The position numbers and the translations under genes are program-made. From Roseibium sp. MMSF_3412 (GTDB lineage: Bacteria > Pseudomonadota > Alphaproteobacteria > Rhizobiales > Stappiaceae), in NCBI RefSeq assembly GCF_030733265.1, contig NZ_JASHJI010000020.1, forward strand, positions 1 to 64,000: 64,000 nucleotides of DNA. Direction: 5' to 3'. A model generated the notes under the pieces. That model saw nothing but the letters and a program-made list of their open reading frames with translations. It was not told the origin of the DNA and did not search any database. This document shows, piece by piece, positions 20,667-46,571 of this stretch. Position 1 is the stretch's first letter. Every line of letters starts with the position of its first letter.

Positions 20667-20708
20667 GGACGTCTCCCACCGGGACACCCCGCCCGGATAA
20701 GTTAAGGT

Positions 20709-20906
20709 TGCGATGGCAGGTCTCCTGACTCGCGGGTCCAAGCTTTCCCGTACCTTCCCGAGCCTTCGTGTAACATGGCCCAGTGGCGTTCATCGGGGTT
20801 GCTCACCGCTCACAGTTGCGGGGGCAGTCACGGATTTAGCGCCCTTCAGGCTCTTCCTCACCGTGTTCCCTTTTCATCTCGCAGCCGTTTTCATTCTGCG
20901 AGAACC
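20709..20906 (-). promoter_or_regulatory. Cobalamin (B12) riboswitch
   Basis: Read on the minus strand, the region carries the ordered conserved blocks of the cobalamin aptamer: GGGAACACGGTG, then CCCCGCAACTGTGAGCGG, then GCCACTGGG, then GGGAAGG, and the terminal B12 box AGTCAGGAGACCTGCC (around 20715-20731). These elements and their spacing are diagnostic. It would switch off downstream expression when adenosylcobalamin is plentiful. The downstream genes are the two tiny frames and the ZnuABC-like operon, not B12 synthesis genes. Confidence 0.93.
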
Positions 20907-21072
20907 ATCAGTTGGCAAACTATTTTCTCAGCTAAAAATAATCAACACGTATTTGTGCTTACGGATCGGCTCCGGAGACCTGGCCGGCATGGCCGGAGCC
21001 ACGACAGCGGCAAGTACACACGATGCATCAGGGACTGGATCCCTTCGCGGCCCCGACCCGTCTGCTGCACGT

Positions 21073-38471: not shown

Positions 38472-38487
38472 TCTGACCGGATCAGAC

Positions 38488-38757
38488 CTGGGTGATCGGC
38501 CCATGAATGAGGCGGAAAGGGTTTGAGGCGGCTTGCTGCTCGTCAAGGATCGGCAAGCGCAGGAAACGGGATTCATTTTCAAGCCTTTCGCAACGCGGAG
38601 GAGGCGCAAGCCGGTCAAATCCGAAGGACATGAAAACGGCTTCACCCCGTGGCGTCAGCGCGCTTGACCGGGCAAGAAGCCCGCTCCACGCACCCTTCCT
38701 GACGGGATTTCGCCATTTCGCATGCCATTCCACTCTCGTTCATGGGTCTGTCACTTA
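38488..38757 (-). mobile_element. MITE-like element, copy 4 (inverted, most decayed ends)
   Basis: This is a 270-bp copy in the opposite orientation. The left end reads CTGGGTGATCGGCCCATGAA and the right end the complement of TTAAGTGACAGACCCATGAA, so the terminal repeats have diverged more than in the other copies. The interior matches the minus-strand reading of copies 1 and 2. Its right border TTA forms the stop codon of the leftward SDR gene. Confidence 0.8.
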
Positions 38758-39444
38758 AAATCGCTCCACATGCGGGCGCAGTTCGATCTCGTTTGTCCAG
38801 ATGCTGCGATGCTGGCGCGTCATCTCCAGATATGTCTTCGCGATCGCGTCAGGATCCAGCGTCTTTTCCGGATCGTTGTAGGGAGCACCGCGTTCGGCAC
38901 TGTGAATGGCCCCGTCGATAACGAAATGCACCACGTGGATGTTCTTCGGATGAAGTTCCCGGGACAGTGACTGACAGAGCCCTCTGAGCGCAAATTTCCC
39001 CATCGCGAAAGCCGCTGATTGCGGGAACCCCTTGATGCCGGCGGATGCGCCGGTGAACAGCAACGTGCCTGCTTGGTTCGGAACCATGCGTTTCGCCGCT
39101 TCGTGGGCGACAAGAAAGGCCCCCCACGCGGTGACGTCGAGGGCGGCGCGCACTTTCTCAGGATCGAGTTGCTCAATCGGACCCTTGGTCCGGCCGCTTG
39201 GATTGTAGACGACAACGTCCGGAGTTGCCTCGTCGGCGTCAAGCGCGTCAAACAGGCGCTTGACCCCGGCCTGGCTCGTGGCATCGCACGCATAGGCCCT
39301 TGCACCGGTCTCCCGGCACAGGTCGTCCAGCTTGTCCGGATTGCGCGCCGCCAGGAAGACCCGATAGCCTGCTTGCGAATAGACACGTGCAAGCGAAGCG
39401 CTCAGCCCCGACCCGGCACCAACAATCAATGCATTTTTTGCCAT
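38755..39444 (-). CDS. SDR-family oxidoreductase
   Basis: The ~229-residue protein has the cofactor motif IVGAGSGLSASLARVYSQAG and conserved internal segments (DVVVYNPSGRTKG; LLFTGASAGIKGF). The usual Tyr-x3-Lys is replaced by FAMGKFAL, where Tyr appears as Phe, so activity is uncertain. The stop TAA lies at the border of the MITE copy, so the ancestral C-terminus may have been altered by insertion. The ATG at 39444 is chosen from the fold start (MAKNALIVGAG). Confidence 0.85.
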   Translation of the reverse strand: MAKNALIVGAGSGLSASLARVYSQAGYRVFLAARNPDKLDDLCRETGARAYACDATSQAGVKRLFDALDADEATPDVVVYNPSGRTKGPIEQLDPEKVRAALDVTAWGAFLVAHEAAKRMVPNQAGTLLFTGASAGIKGFPQSAAFAMGKFALRGLCQSLSRELHPKNIHVVHFVIDGAIHSAERGAPYNDPEKTLDPDAIAKTYLEMTRQHRSIWTNEIELRPHVERF

Positions 39445-42425: not shown

Positions 42426-42695
42426 CTAGGTGATGGACCCATAAATGAGACTGAAATGGCATGCGAAATGGCGAAATCACGTCAGGAAGAGTGTGCGGAG
42501 CGGGCTTCCTGCCCGGTCAAGCACGCTGACGCCACGGGGTGATGCCATTTCCATGTCCTTCGGATTTGACCGGCTTGCGCCTCTTCGGCGTTGCGAAAGG
42601 CTTGAAAATGCGCCGCATTTCCTGCGCTTCCGCTCCTTGACGAGAAGCAAGCCACCTCAAACCATTTCGGCCTCATTTATGGGTCCATCACCTAG
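42426..42695 (+). mobile_element. MITE-like element, copy 2
   Basis: This is a 270-bp element in the same orientation as copy 1 and differing from it at roughly a dozen positions by eye. Both ends carry CTAG and the GGTGATGGACCCATAA inverted repeat. Its right CTAG (42692-42695) is shared with the next element. Confidence 0.88.
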
Positions 42696-42961
42696 GGTAC
42701 GGACCCATAAATGACGCCGATTTGGCGGCAGAAATGGCAAAATCTCGTGAGGAAGCGTGTGCAGAGCGGGCTTTATGCCCGGTCAAGCGCGGTGACGCTG
42801 CGAGATACAGCCATTTTGCCGTCCTTCGGATTTGGCCGTTTTGGCCATCTTCAACGTCGCGAAAGGCTTGAAAATGAACCACATTTCCTGCGCTTTCGCT
42901 CCTTGCAGTTGGTCAAAACGATCCAAACCAAATTGACTTCATTTATGGGTCCGTACCCTAA
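42692..42961 (+). mobile_element. MITE-like element, copy 3 (diverged subfamily)
   Basis: This element is about 270 bp with terminal repeats TAGGGTACGGACCCATAAATGA at the left and the exact complement at the right. The interior aligns with copies 1 and 2 only loosely but has the same layout and open reading direction. Its left end abuts the CTAG border of copy 2, consistent with insertion into that CTAG. Confidence 0.85.
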
Positions 42962-43193
42962 GCCTCTGGAGATAATTCAGATTGTTGCGAAAAAGCAACA
43001 TATAGTGACACAATTACATCATATGCGAAACGTCGTACAATTACCACTTGCAACCTGACAGCGACTTGCCGTATCAACCCGCCACCGATGAATTGTCCGG
43101 TGCAGATATCAATGGTTCGGCTATCTTTGCCACCCGCGTGATCCGGCTCTGCCGCATTCATGTACGGATGCTGCTCTGGAATATCGGTCGCCA

Positions 43194-43269
43194 GCGCGTG
43201 TAGCTCAGCAGGTAGAGCATCGGGCATGTTGCCCGACGGTCACAGGTTCAAGTCCTGTCATGTGTACCA
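43194..43269 (+). ncRNA. tRNA-like element 1: full cloverleaf with CCA but no usable anticodon
   Basis: The 76-nt element folds as follows. The acceptor GCGCGTG/CATGTGT has several G-T pairs. The D stem is GCTC/GAGC with loop AGCAGGTA, and the T arm is ACAGG-TTCAAGT-CCTGT. Discriminator A and encoded CCA (43267-43269) follow. The anticodon arm TCGGG-CATGTTG-CCCGA lacks U33, and an inner C-G pair can close it to a 5-base loop. It is therefore unlikely to decode. I infer a tRNA mimic or decoy; a decayed tRNA is the alternative, but the intact acceptor-T half and CCA argue for selection. Confidence 0.6.
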
Positions 43270-43343
43270 CGGATAGCTCAGTTTGGTTAGAGCATCGGGT
43301 TTCACCCCGACTGTCGTGGGTTCGATTCCCACTCCAACCGGCA
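43270..43343 (+). ncRNA. tRNA-like element 2: intact D, anticodon and T arms, broken acceptor
   Basis: Directly after the CCA of element 1, a D stem GCTC/GAGC (43276-43293), an anticodon-type arm TCGGG/CCCGA with a 6-base loop TTTCAC, and a T arm GTGGG-TTCGATT-CCCAC are present. The 3' strand TCCAACC has no complementary 5' strand beyond three pairs, because the sequence before the D arm is occupied by element 1. The end reads GGCA rather than CCA. It shares the TCGGG/CCCGA stem with element 1. Confidence 0.5.
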
Positions 43344-43383
43344 AACCCTGTGGGTTCGGGTTCGACTCCCGGTAACTGCCCCA
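43340..43383 (+). ncRNA. tRNA-like element 3: acceptor-T-arm minihelix with CCA
   Basis: GGCA (43340-43343) can pair with TGCC (43377-43380), enclosing a T arm TCGGG-TTCGACT-CCCGG and followed by CCA at 43381-43383. There is no room for D and anticodon arms. A minihelix of this kind is the part of tRNA recognised by CCA-handling and processing enzymes. Confidence 0.45.
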
Positions 43384-43391
43384 TTGGGGCG

Positions 43392-43412
43392 ACAGCTTCA
43401 GGTGCTGTTTTT
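43392..43412 (+). terminator. Intrinsic terminator after the tRNA-like array
   Basis: ACAGC (43392-43396) pairs with GCTGT (43404-43408) around a 7-base loop and is followed by a T run to 43412. It follows the last CCA by 8 bases, so the array can be a short independent transcript, with read-through to slipin possible. Confidence 0.6.
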
Positions 43413-43757
43413 AAAAAGGGATCTGAAGGGATCTTGCGGACGCAGGAGGCGTAGCCCTGTCTTCGGACATGGCGCGCGGATTGCCGACGCCAGGCGCCCT
43501 CGCCCGGTTGCCGTCGATGGCTGCGCTGCGATTTTGCCGGACGTGCTCCTTTTCGAAGGGGTGCTACCCGCCTCACCGCCGCAAGGCCCTCTGGCCGGAA
43601 ACCCGGTGGGAGCCCTCGTGCTCTCTTCAGGTCTCCAGACCTGTTCAGTTCTTCGCCCCGGATCGCCCGATGGACGTTCCGGAAACCACCAACCGCAAAC
43701 CAGACATCAACATGAAAGGACAGCCAAGTGCCTTAGAGCCATGGAAGGAGTATCGAA
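43413..43757 (+). other. Long leader before the slipin gene
   Basis: This 345-bp stretch lies between the tRNA-like array and slipin. Open frames here overlap the slipin start and show no family motifs, so I do not call a gene. AAGGAG seven bases before 43758 is the slipin ribosome site. Confidence 0.4.
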
Positions 43758-44912
43758 ATGATGACTATTCTCGACAAAATTCGCGGGCGAACCCGCGTTG
43801 TGATTTCCGAAAACGAACGAGCGGTTCACCTCGTCAGAGGTGAGATCCAGGGCATCCTCGAACCGGGCGAACACAGTCTGAAAAACGGCCGTGGTACGCT
43901 CGTGGTGGAACGGCAGTCACTGGCATCGCCCGAGTTCAGGTCCGGTTATGAGAAGGCACTTTTCGATAAGCTCCCTGACGTGGCCGAAAAGCACCTGACC
44001 GTCGTGCGGACCCGGTCCGCCGAGGTTGCGATTGTCGAACGGGACGGACAGATCCACAAGGTTCTGGGTCCTGATGAACGGCTTGTTCTTTGGACGGCTG
44101 CAGGACCGTGGACCTGGGAATTGATCGACACGCAGGAACAGCCGGAACTGCCGCAGAAACTGATGCGCAGGCTGGGCGATGCAAAGCAGACGCAACAGTT
44201 TGAAATCGTTCGGGTGAGCGAGGGAAACGTTGCCCTGTTCTTTGTCGACGGCATCCTGACCCGGACGCTCAAGGCAGGTGTGCACGCGTTCTGGAAGGCC
44301 GGACGGTCGCTGACCCAGAAGCTTATCGACCTGAAACGGCAGAGCCTCGACGTTACGGGACAGGAACTCCTGACGCTTGACCGTGTCACGATCCGGATCA
44401 ACCTGTCAGCGGAATTTCGCGTCGTTGACCCGGTCAAGGCTGCGCAGGACGTCAAGGACTTCACCGACACGCTGCACCGGGCGCTCCAGGTGGTGTTCCG
44501 GAAGCAACTCGGCGCGCTGAAGCTGGATCAGATCCTCGAGCGCAAGGGCGAGGTCAACGCGGAGGCAACCGCCCGGATCCAGTCGGACATGGCTGCGATC
44601 GGTCTGGAGATCCACGATATCGTCCTGAAGGATGTGATCCTGCCGGGCGAAATGCGTGAGATCCTCAACAAGGTTGTTACGGCTGAAAAAGAGGCCGAAG
44701 CCAACGTGATCCGGCGCCGGGAAGAAACCAACGCAACCCGTTCACTTCTGAACACGGCCAAGGTCATGGCGGAAAATCCGGTCATGCTGCGGCTGAAGGA
44801 ACTGGAAGCGCTGGAATCGATCGCCGCAAAAGTGGATCGACTGACGGTCCACAACGGAACCGGAGGCTTGATGAACGATCTTGTCAAGCTGCGCGACGAC
44901 AGCGCGGCGTAA
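43758..44912 (+). CDS. Slipin-family (SPFH/band-7) protein
   Basis: The 384-residue protein has an SPFH/band-7 domain at about 150-320 (LFFVDGILTRTLKAGVHAFW, SLDVTGQELLTLDRVTIRIN, RKQLGALKLDQILERKGEVN) and a coiled-coil tail (VVTAEKEAEANVIRRREETN). The N-terminal ~140 residues hold a second, degenerate copy of the same opening (HLVRGEIQGILEPGEHSLKN). It lacks the N-terminal membrane hairpin of typical slipins. SPFH proteins form ring or cage oligomers. Its placement between a tRNA-like array and a KptA gene suggests an RNA-repair scaffold role, which is inference. Confidence 0.88.
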   Translation: MMTILDKIRGRTRVVISENERAVHLVRGEIQGILEPGEHSLKNGRGTLVVERQSLASPEFRSGYEKALFDKLPDVAEKHLTVVRTRSAEVAIVERDGQIHKVLGPDERLVLWTAAGPWTWELIDTQEQPELPQKLMRRLGDAKQTQQFEIVRVSEGNVALFFVDGILTRTLKAGVHAFWKAGRSLTQKLIDLKRQSLDVTGQELLTLDRVTIRINLSAEFRVVDPVKAAQDVKDFTDTLHRALQVVFRKQLGALKLDQILERKGEVNAEATARIQSDMAAIGLEIHDIVLKDVILPGEMREILNKVVTAEKEAEANVIRRREETNATRSLLNTAKVMAENPVMLRLKELEALESIAAKVDRLTVHNGTGGLMNDLVKLRDDSAA

Positions 44913-44918
44913 CATCGG

Positions 44919-44953
44919 TCGGCGCGGGGCAACCCGCGCCGATTTCTTTTTTT
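44919..44953 (+). terminator. Strong intrinsic terminator after slipin
   Basis: A perfect 10-bp stem (TCGGCGCGGG / CCCGCGCCGA, 44919-44928 with 44933-44942, loop GCAA) is followed by TTTCTTTTTTT. It separates slipin from kptA, so kptA probably has its own promoter. Confidence 0.85.
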
Positions 44954-45041
44954 ACACCGCCTCGGTCTAGAACTGGGGCCAGTTTACAATGTTTCTTGAG
45001 ACCCCGGCTCAAGGCCGGGGCGGCACGAAAAAATACCTAAA

Positions 45042-45593
45042 ATGCAAAACACCACAAAAATCTCCAAACAGCTGTCGTTCTGGCTGAGGCATTGTCCGCA
45101 GGACGCCGGCCTGGTTCTGTCCGAAACGGGTTGGGCAGATGTCGGCGCTGTTTTGAAAGCACTCGAAACGAAGGGCATGTCTTGCAACGCCGCCCGGCTC
45201 GGCCAGGTCGTCGCTTCAAACGACAAGCAACGCTTTGAACTTTCTCAAGACGGCAGTTCAATTCGAGCGCGACAAGGGCACTCCGTTCAGATCGACCTTG
45301 AATTGGCACCCGTCACCCCGCCGCACACGCTATTTCACGGAACTGCGGAACGCTTTCTCTCTTCGATCCTGGACGAAGGATTGAAACCGATGCGGCGTCA
45401 TCATGTGCATCTGTCCGGCAATCCCGATACGGCACTCAAGGTTGGCAAAAGGCACGGCAAGCCTGTTGTCCTGCTGGTCGATGCCGAAAGAATGGTCGCC
45501 GAGGGGCACCTCTTTTACCGGACAGAAAACGGCGTCTGGCTCACGTCATCCGTACCTGTGGGCTTTCTGGCAAGGAATTCCGGCAAAGTGTGA
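45042..45593 (+). CDS. kptA: RNA 2'-phosphotransferase, KptA/Tpt1
   Basis: The 183-residue protein transfers the 2'-phosphate of ligated RNA to NAD+, the last step of fungal-type tRNA splicing. It has the full Tpt1 pattern: SFWLRHCPQDAGL (Arg16-His17), VASNDKQRFELS (Arg64), IRARQGHS, LFHGTAERFLSSILDEGL and RRHHVHLS (Arg119), plus RHGKPVVLLVDA. The catalytic Arg-His-Arg-Arg set is intact. Bacteria mostly lack the pathway that makes 2'-phosphate junctions, so the natural role is debated. A hairpin (CCCCGGC/GCCGGGG, 45002-45020) precedes the start. Confidence 0.95.
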   Translation: MQNTTKISKQLSFWLRHCPQDAGLVLSETGWADVGAVLKALETKGMSCNAARLGQVVASNDKQRFELSQDGSSIRARQGHSVQIDLELAPVTPPHTLFHGTAERFLSSILDEGLKPMRRHHVHLSGNPDTALKVGKRHGKPVVLLVDAERMVAEGHLFYRTENGVWLTSSVPVGFLARNSGKV

Positions 45594-45665
45594 CGTAGCG
45601 ACATTGACGAAAACCGGCAATCAGCTGACACTTTCGGCATGATTTTTTAAAGAGCTGGTTTGACG

Positions 45666-46571
45666 ATGAAGTTTCCTGCATCCCGCCTGTTAGTTGACAC
45701 GCATTCCTGCCCGAGTTGCTTCGGTGTTCCATTGCCGATCGTCTGGAAGTGCGCCTGGACCGTCTGGACCGGCAAGTCGCCCCAGGCGCGTATGACGGAC
45801 TTGTGCCTTTGCCTTGGCCCCCCACCGCCGATCGGCGGAGACCCGATCATGAGCGGTGCATTCAATGTTCTCGTGGAAGGCCTTCCGGCGGCACGCATGA
45901 CCGACCTGACCCTCAAAGCCGGTACACTCGTAACCGGCTATCCCCGAGTTCTGATTGGAATGCAGGCCGGCGGAGGCGGTGGCGGTGGCGGTGGCGGCGG
46001 AGCAGGCGCAGTTGGACCCGGACCAGTTGGCAAAACCAATGTCGGGCCGTCCATTGTCGTTGAAGGGACCGAGGATTTTAGAGAGAAAACCGTACAGGCA
46101 CTCGCAAAAATCGCCCAGACCCCGTCAGGAAACAAGCTTCTCAACGATCTCCACACTTCCGGCAAGACGATCACGATCGTAGAGACGACCGGTGGAAACG
46201 AAGTCACCGACTTTGATGCCAACGGCGGATTGGATGCCAGCGGTAAACCCGGGTCCGGTTGTGATACGACTGTGCACTACAATCCAAATACAACCACGCT
46301 TGGACCGGATGAGCCCTGGATGACCCGGCCACCCGAAATTGGCCTTGCCCATGAGCTGATCCACTCCTCGCACGCTGCAAACGGCGAATTGGATTTTACT
46401 GAGGTGGACAATGATGGACAGGCAGATCCCTCCGATCCGACAAAAAAGACTCAGGTTATCAAGGAAGAAGCAAGGACCGTTGGATTTCCGCCCCACGACA
46501 ACGAACCCTATAGCGAGAACAAGATCAGGGACGAGTGGGACCCCAAGCAGCCCCAACGCCCATACTATTAA
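45666..46571 (+). CDS. PAAR-domain effector with C-terminal zinc metallopeptidase (M91-like)
   Basis: The ~301-residue protein opens with a PAAR-type domain (~1-105; CLCLGPPPPIGGDPIMSGAF, GLPAARMTDLTLKAGTLVTG). A run of eleven glycines forms a linker. A toxin domain (~130-301) has the zinc motif IGLAHELIHSSHAANGELD, with HExxH and a further Glu as in peptidase M91/NleD-like enzymes. PAAR proteins tip the type VI secretion spike, so this is a likely antibacterial or host-directed effector. The ATG at 45666 is preferred over TTG at 45660. No T6SS structural genes are in the window. Confidence 0.82.
   Translation: MKFPASRLLVDTHSCPSCFGVPLPIVWKCAWTVWTGKSPQARMTDLCLCLGPPPPIGGDPIMSGAFNVLVEGLPAARMTDLTLKAGTLVTGYPRVLIGMQAGGGGGGGGGGGAGAVGPGPVGKTNVGPSIVVEGTEDFREKTVQALAKIAQTPSGNKLLNDLHTSGKTITIVETTGGNEVTDFDANGGLDASGKPGSGCDTTVHYNPNTTTLGPDEPWMTRPPEIGLAHELIHSSHAANGELDFTEVDNDGQADPSDPTKKTQVIKEEARTVGFPPHDNEPYSENKIRDEWDPKQPQRPYY

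Follow-up and report, generated by a model that had tools for sequence, protein, structure and literature searches.

The question raised by this locus is why a slipin gene should be preceded by a row of sequences that resemble transfer RNAs (tRNAs). The locus lies in a stretch of 64,000 nucleotides (nt) from Roseibium sp. MMSF_3412 (Rhizobiales; Stappiaceae), positions 1 to 64,000 of contig NZ_JASHJI010000020.1 in assembly GCF_030733265.1, hereafter the window. A first-pass annotation had proposed that a tRNA-like array, the slipin and the RNA 2'-phosphotransferase KptA together form a candidate RNA-repair or RNA-decoy locus in which the array serves as substrate, decoy or scaffold. In this study, we find a structured leader of about 600 nt directly upstream of slipin, with two tRNA-like folds, a T-arm hairpin and an anticodon-stem-loop mimic among its parts. 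The array is conserved and is not decaying tRNA debris. Decoy is the best reading among substrate, decoy and scaffold, and comparison of the leader sequences suggests that their loops could act as bait, or as a cleavage sensor, for anticodon nucleases, a reading to which we give a rough probability of 0.43. Coordinates are those of the window, and the features of the leader, slipin and kptA all lie on its forward strand.

A slipin search of genome contigs returned 176 encoding stretches, the best 80 of which (near loci) make up a set of 81 with the window. They come mostly from Mesorhizobium, with Stappiaceae, Shinella, Rhizobium and sphingomonads, and have flanks of up to 8 kb, shorter in some loci. 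A slipin profile matched in 23 of 398 Pseudomonadota genomes and, within the window's order, in 36 of 347, a patchy distribution that includes none of five other genomes of the window's genus. From both profile samples and two enteric plasmid records (L167 from E. coli and L168 from Citrobacter), 52 further loci were drawn; plasmid matches numbered nine, and two of them were examined. For 78 of the 80 near loci, ARAGORN called one or two tRNA-like genes at approximately 300–620 bp ahead of slipin, many with an anticodon that the program could not name. The two misses are L007, where a tRNA-like sequence is visible by eye, and L060, where a contig end cuts the leader. Upstream counts in the further loci rest on the 50 that reach 600 nt or more ahead of slipin; L148 and L204 fall short of this and were left out. 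A T-arm with a paired stem lies within 900 nt upstream of slipin in 45 of these 50 versus 1 of 52 control stretches of 900 nt, each beginning 1000 nt downstream of where the slipin match starts, and the misses are L202, L205, L206, L167 and L168. Anticodon-loop-like hairpins, T-arm loops excluded, were seen in 46 of the 50 versus 10 of the 52 controls. A covariance model of the structured domain described below (R1) matched in 7 of the 347 genomes of the order, all seven times directly upstream of slipin. The pairing of array and slipin thus extends over alphaproteobacteria and to loci beyond the class. The first-pass annotation would have given way to an adjacency lost among relatives or to an array random in sequence, and for array and slipin we found neither.

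In the E. coli and Citrobacter records, slipin and a nucleotidyltransferase gene sit between rluF and lysC; L167 has one weak anticodon-loop candidate, and a leader-plus-slipin query was covered over at least 80% of its length in 1621 of 5426 E. coli genomes. Carriage by phages was considered and rejected, with no match among 50,697 phage records.

The anatomy of the leader was read from alignments of chosen representatives (28 leaders, of which 18 were used here). From the 5′ end, these 18 show TTGC/TA-like promoter columns, then a short and a bulged hairpin and the two tRNA-like elements (tRNA-like 1, then tRNA-like 2); small hairpins come next, and after them a long-range helix encloses a domain, which is followed by a Shine-Dalgarno-like site, a mini open reading frame (mini-ORF) and the slipin start. 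The promoter-like sequence of the window (TTGCAA-17-GTATCA, 43048–43076) has hexamer columns that are conserved upstream of the 18 aligned leaders; a consensus promoter scanner passed over this site and proposed a single different one, at chance level. The 5′ hairpin (43134–43167) carries a 2-nt UA bulge and shows covariation, with double changes in 5 of 11 predicted pairs among 19 of 33 hairpin stretches, the 14 distant ones being left out.

tRNA-like 1 (43194–43269) ends in an encoded CCA, is the only element of the window called by ARAGORN and scores 56 bits against the Rfam tRNA model (43194–43266). tRNA-like 2 (43271–43336), with a short acceptor stem, scores 44.2 bits (43271–43335), so that both exceed the RF00005 gathering score of 29 bits. 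Neither has a 7-nt anticodon loop with U33 in the window, where the loop of tRNA-like 1 reads CATGTTG and lacks U33 and that of tRNA-like 2 has 6 nt. The fold and encoded CCA of tRNA-like 1 are kept in many loci, and its loop, in 72 parsed leaders, is 6 nt long in 44, 7 in 15, 5 in 12 and 4 in one. This loop is mostly unable to decode. With the canonical cloverleaf set by hand as the structure, 96.8% of cells in 24 tRNA-like 2 sequences are paired and 9 of 18 pairs show double changes, versus 4.2 in shuffles (score 0.294 versus 0.110). Three tandem tRNA-like sequences had been proposed in the first-pass annotation. Two of them hold, and the third resolves into a lone T-arm hairpin (43357–43371), recognized by its sequence, and an isolated anticodon stem-loop mimic (43392–43408) whose inner 13 nt equal the anticodon stem-loop of the genome's own tRNA-Leu(CAG). 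The terminator said to end the array is this same hairpin followed by Ts, and the run of five Ts occurs in the window alone among 15 leaders compared.

Three parts of the leader go beyond the earlier description, namely the 5′ bulged hairpin, a structured domain of about 220 nt and the mini-ORF. The domain (43418–43639) is closed by a long-range helix pairing 43418–43428 with 43625–43635, and double changes occur in 24 of its 35 predicted pairs (22 of 24 sequences used). The mini-ORF reads GTG-CCT-TAG (43728–43736) behind a Shine-Dalgarno-like AAAGGA (43715–43720). A start-X-stop mini-ORF precedes slipin in 78 of 81 loci, in one of them as start-stop, compared with a mean of 0.71 of 81 and a maximum of 4 in 200 shuffles; the pattern is missing in L005, L055 and L067. 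Starts are ATG (60) or GTG (18), stops are TGA (57), TAG (20) or TAA (1), and the middle codon is variable, with 11 different codons. The mini-ORF may be likened to the bar minigene of lambda, which we take to be a two-codon ORF; here it is instead a conserved leader element. At its thresholds, Rfam 15 gave only tRNA matches in the window's leader, and the same was true of 12 distant loci. Thus, genome annotation may label elements of such leaders as tRNAs or miss them.

The isolated hairpins between tRNA-like 2 and the structured domain mimic genuine anticodon loops. Loops were counted in 79 of the 81 leaders (L060 was too short and L075 was unparsed), which gave 67 distinct regions. Among 86 loops of 7 nt in these regions, 79 fit Y32-U33-NNN-R37, whereas 300 mononucleotide shuffles gave a mean of 5.7 seven-nt loops and 0.34 fits (maximum 2). 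The 86 loops carry 22 anticodons; none has A34 and none is a stop anticodon. When the 40 tRNAs read from the window's genome were used for comparison, a cognate tRNA existed for 32 of 38 distinct hairpins, and outside the anticodon the hairpins resembled the cognate (6.41 of 10) more than non-cognates (4.66), a value reached in 0 of 5000 label permutations. Some hairpins match exactly over 13–15 nt, as the window's does for Leu(CAG) and those of other loci do for Leu(UAG), Gly(UCC), Ser(UGA) and Asp(GUC).

Turnover was followed in tRNA-like 2 of 51 Mesorhizobium-type leaders, including L020, which has no genus label. Stem columns are almost unchanged, anticodon-loop columns show 5–17 changes, and the triplet has undergone at least 22 anticodon changes among nine anticodons. 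The term degenerate tRNAs, used at first for these elements, therefore does not fit, since their stems are nearly frozen while the anticodon loops diversify.

RNA-repair genes accompany slipin most regularly outside the window's class. Nineteen loci of the phylum sample were taken with 5 kb on either side, and all 14 from outside the class encode RtcB in that range of slipin, as against none of the five inside it. Pfam profiles run on 65 neighboring ORFs of distant loci (one downstream ORF, L155:8898-11081, was omitted and two of L166 were added) found RtcB in 14, RlaP in 6 and RtcA in 4, and RtcR was found in 7 of 27 upstream ORFs, one of L166 again added. Sigma54-like sequences were noted by eye ahead of several leaders outside the class. 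At L166, RtcB lies upstream of slipin instead of downstream, and the Citrobacter record has rtcR annotated upstream and a nucleotidyltransferase downstream of slipin. The window's own genome has two RtcB genes, on contigs C5 and C15, which are unlinked to the array. Across the 347 genomes of the order, slipin (36) and RtcB (64, including 2 below the family cut-off) occur together in 20 where 6.6 are expected (p 1e-7), and slipin and KptA (32) in 11 where 3.3 are expected (p 9e-5), both counts being uncorrected for phylogeny.

KptA is confined in its adjacency. Among Stappiaceae, it stands next to slipin in the window and in 7 of 11 near loci. None of the 69 remaining near loci and none of the 52 further loci has it there, and these last two counts rule it out as a general partner. 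The proposal of an array, slipin and KptA locus thus holds for array and slipin and fails for KptA beyond the family, and even in the window a strong terminator separates kptA from slipin. Likewise, the expected co-occurrence with rtcB or kptA within 5 kb is borne out for rtcB in the phylum sample outside the class, was not found for rtcB near alphaproteobacterial loci and is limited to Stappiaceae for kptA.

A conserved RNA that looks like tRNA and is kept beside RNA-repair genes in relatives may be bait or sensor. The leader RNA would display a small, fast-changing set of anticodon loops, on a tRNA-like fold and on isolated anticodon stem-loops. Anticodon nucleases might cut these loops instead of cellular tRNAs, in which case the leader would be a decoy; alternatively, the cut loops might report damage in cis, an altered leader leading to altered slipin expression. 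The start-X-stop mini-ORF could then be a translational gate, slipin a scaffold, and the healing enzyme RtcB in other lineages and KptA in Stappiaceae. A fuller version is conceivable, in which an evolving stem-loop repertoire copied from the cell's own tRNAs would be replaceable bait in microbial conflict, leader cleavage a damage signal gated by the mini-ORF, and slipin a cage-like ribonucleoprotein (RNP) for tRNA repair; taken as a whole we consider it unlikely. The leader gives a direct handle on how bacteria detect and withstand the cleavage of anticodons. Each displayed loop names a tRNA and therefore the class of nuclease that a lineage may meet. If the proposal is true, a role would also emerge for an SPFH family with a common locus in E. 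coli.

Several observations weigh against bait or sensor. RtcB was not found in the flanks of the 80 near loci, nor by the other alphaproteobacterial loci, nor in the fetched stretch of the E. coli and Citrobacter loci, and in the latter two slipin persists behind a reduced leader in which the T-arm pattern found no match. Of the 36 genomes with slipin, 29 have no match to the R1 model. With z -0.93, the window's leader is unremarkable in folding energy, which was not used as evidence. The loop shuffles were mononucleotide and ignored relatedness, and the cognate tRNA alone ranked first for just 4 of 32 hairpins in a test that used the tRNAs of one genome. Loops with A34 are present in some distant loci, so that a general avoidance of A34, true of the 86 loops, was rejected. 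In the 51 mesorhizobial leaders, D-loop and variable-loop columns and one T-loop column of tRNA-like 2 vary too, and turnover is thus not confined to the anticodon. Since tRNA-like 1 loops of 7 nt are limited to 15 of 72 leaders and the loop of tRNA-like 2 in the window has 6 nt, the window holds one clean mimic. Lastly, according to PMC7790460, the tRNA-like YrlA of Salmonella is not cleaved by the nuclease studied there, which argues against a bait that acts by being cut; the same source suggests the tRNA-like domain of YrlA as a possible competitive inhibitor of the nuclease.

The strongest competitor, a tentative one that we find somewhat unlikely, is that the leader is processed to a stable RNA which putatively binds slipin as an RNP platform for repair, its loop diversity recruiting substrates. 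The analogy is with Ro60 and Y RNAs, in which a tRNA-like RNA partners a platform protein, and PMC7824862 describes TROVE proteins as RNP platforms that serve RNA repair together with a tRNA-like partner. SPFH proteins form rings that build domes (PMC12624060). No other pair that we saw is linked as strictly as array and slipin, and an uncut YrlA would suit a scaffold. Against this, all cases examined have the leader in cis, continuing up to the start of slipin through a conserved mini-ORF, neither of which an RNA acting purely in trans would need, and the leader scores below the threshold of the YrlA model.

A cis-regulator that senses tRNA processing or modification (RNase P, RNase Z or modification enzymes), using mimicry to recruit these enzymes to the slipin mRNA, appears improbable. 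It would account for tRNA-like 1, which keeps its fold and encoded CCA and mostly lacks a 7-nt decoding loop, as expected of a processing substrate, yet it leaves unexplained isolated anticodon stem-loops with many anticodons and fast turnover. That the elements are functional extra tRNA genes, standing ahead of slipin by happenstance like stress-induced tRNA clusters such as the Anabaena trn operon, is very improbable: two elements do exceed the Rfam tRNA threshold, and the trn operon of Anabaena has its repressor in common with rtcB and a slipin (PMC10272220), but loops of 4–6 nt in 57 of 72 tRNA-like 1 elements, the short acceptor stem of tRNA-like 2, the isolated arms and the change of anticodons at a single site inside a genus all speak otherwise. 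The patchy distribution of slipin would suit functionless tRNA-gene relics of an integrated element, a view made barely credible by architecture and covariation conserved across families, unless the covariation is an artefact of alignment, and by cognate-loop mimicry.

The slipin of the window (43758–44912) is an SPFH protein of 384 residues (Pfam Band_7, E 1.8e-30), with its nearest named relatives in Roseibium and Labrenzia. Its layout is three tandem beta modules, an SPFH core and a long helix; an AlphaFold model has a mean predicted local distance difference test score of 84.5, and the N-terminal 195 residues modeled alone reach 93.1. The protein had been described as lacking the usual membrane hairpin, and our analysis agrees, as no window of 19 residues reaches a hydropathy of 1.6 (maximum 1.25), a value reached by 8 of 50 aligned slipins. 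The terminator reported between slipin and kptA is also present and strong (44917–44944; 12 pairs followed by a T-run). KptA (45042–45593) is full length, matching PTS_2-RNA over residues 4–169 (E 9.1e-51), and its residues 4–176 align with a solved RNA 2'-phosphotransferase structure. It has an Arg-His-Arg-Arg set that we take to be catalytic. The gene after kptA (45660–46571) encodes a PAAR motif and a Peptidase_M91 (effector-type) domain, and matches to it in related loci are partly split or shifted.

Elsewhere in the window, two adjacent stretches of about 250 bp at 42430–42960 are each flanked by inverted copies of GGACCCATAAATGA, and a similar translated sequence lies near 38.5 kb (approximately 38480–38760); read by eye, they look like a small family of repeat elements. 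A cobalamin riboswitch lies on the reverse strand at 20698–20924 (129.3 bits).

Among the papers listed by a literature search with limited coverage of subscription journals, none told of such an array in its title or abstract, and the locus is best placed beside systems that share some of its parts. The beta modules of slipin, standing before an SPFH-type domain and a long helix, recall the eukaryotic vault, a ribonucleoprotein in which the shoulder of MVP is SPFH-like (PMC13347060). The likeness is one of fold of the whole slipin model only, and the N-terminal part alone fits other SPFH proteins better. PaFlo8 of Pseudomonas aeruginosa (PA14_60630) is an SPFH gene amid rtcA, rtcB and rtcR, likened here by gene context alone; as a difference, the word tRNA occurs 0 times in the main text of PMC13086221. 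In the TrcR regulon of Anabaena, a single repressor, relieved by translational stress, governs rtcB, the slipin alr0740 and a tRNA operon. By the description in PMC10272220, on which the comparison is based, its genes are dispersed and trn is treated as an operon of tRNA genes.

YrlA and the Y RNAs (RF02553) share tRNA mimicry with the leader. Membership in that family was considered and rejected, as the window scores 32.1 bits against a gathering score of 69. An ordinary pair of adjacent tRNAs at L118 scores nearly alike (27.7 bits), and the match to the model is thus due to tandem tRNA folds. In comparison with the RtcR-regulated rsr-yrlBA-rtcBA operon of Salmonella, slipin takes the place of Ro60, several mimics with diverse anticodon loops stand where there is one Y RNA, and the window has a sigma70-like promoter and no RtcB nearby. 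What is shared is a tRNA-mimicking RNA in a repair operon, and the loci outside the window's class also have RtcB and, in part, RtcR, RtcA and RlaP.

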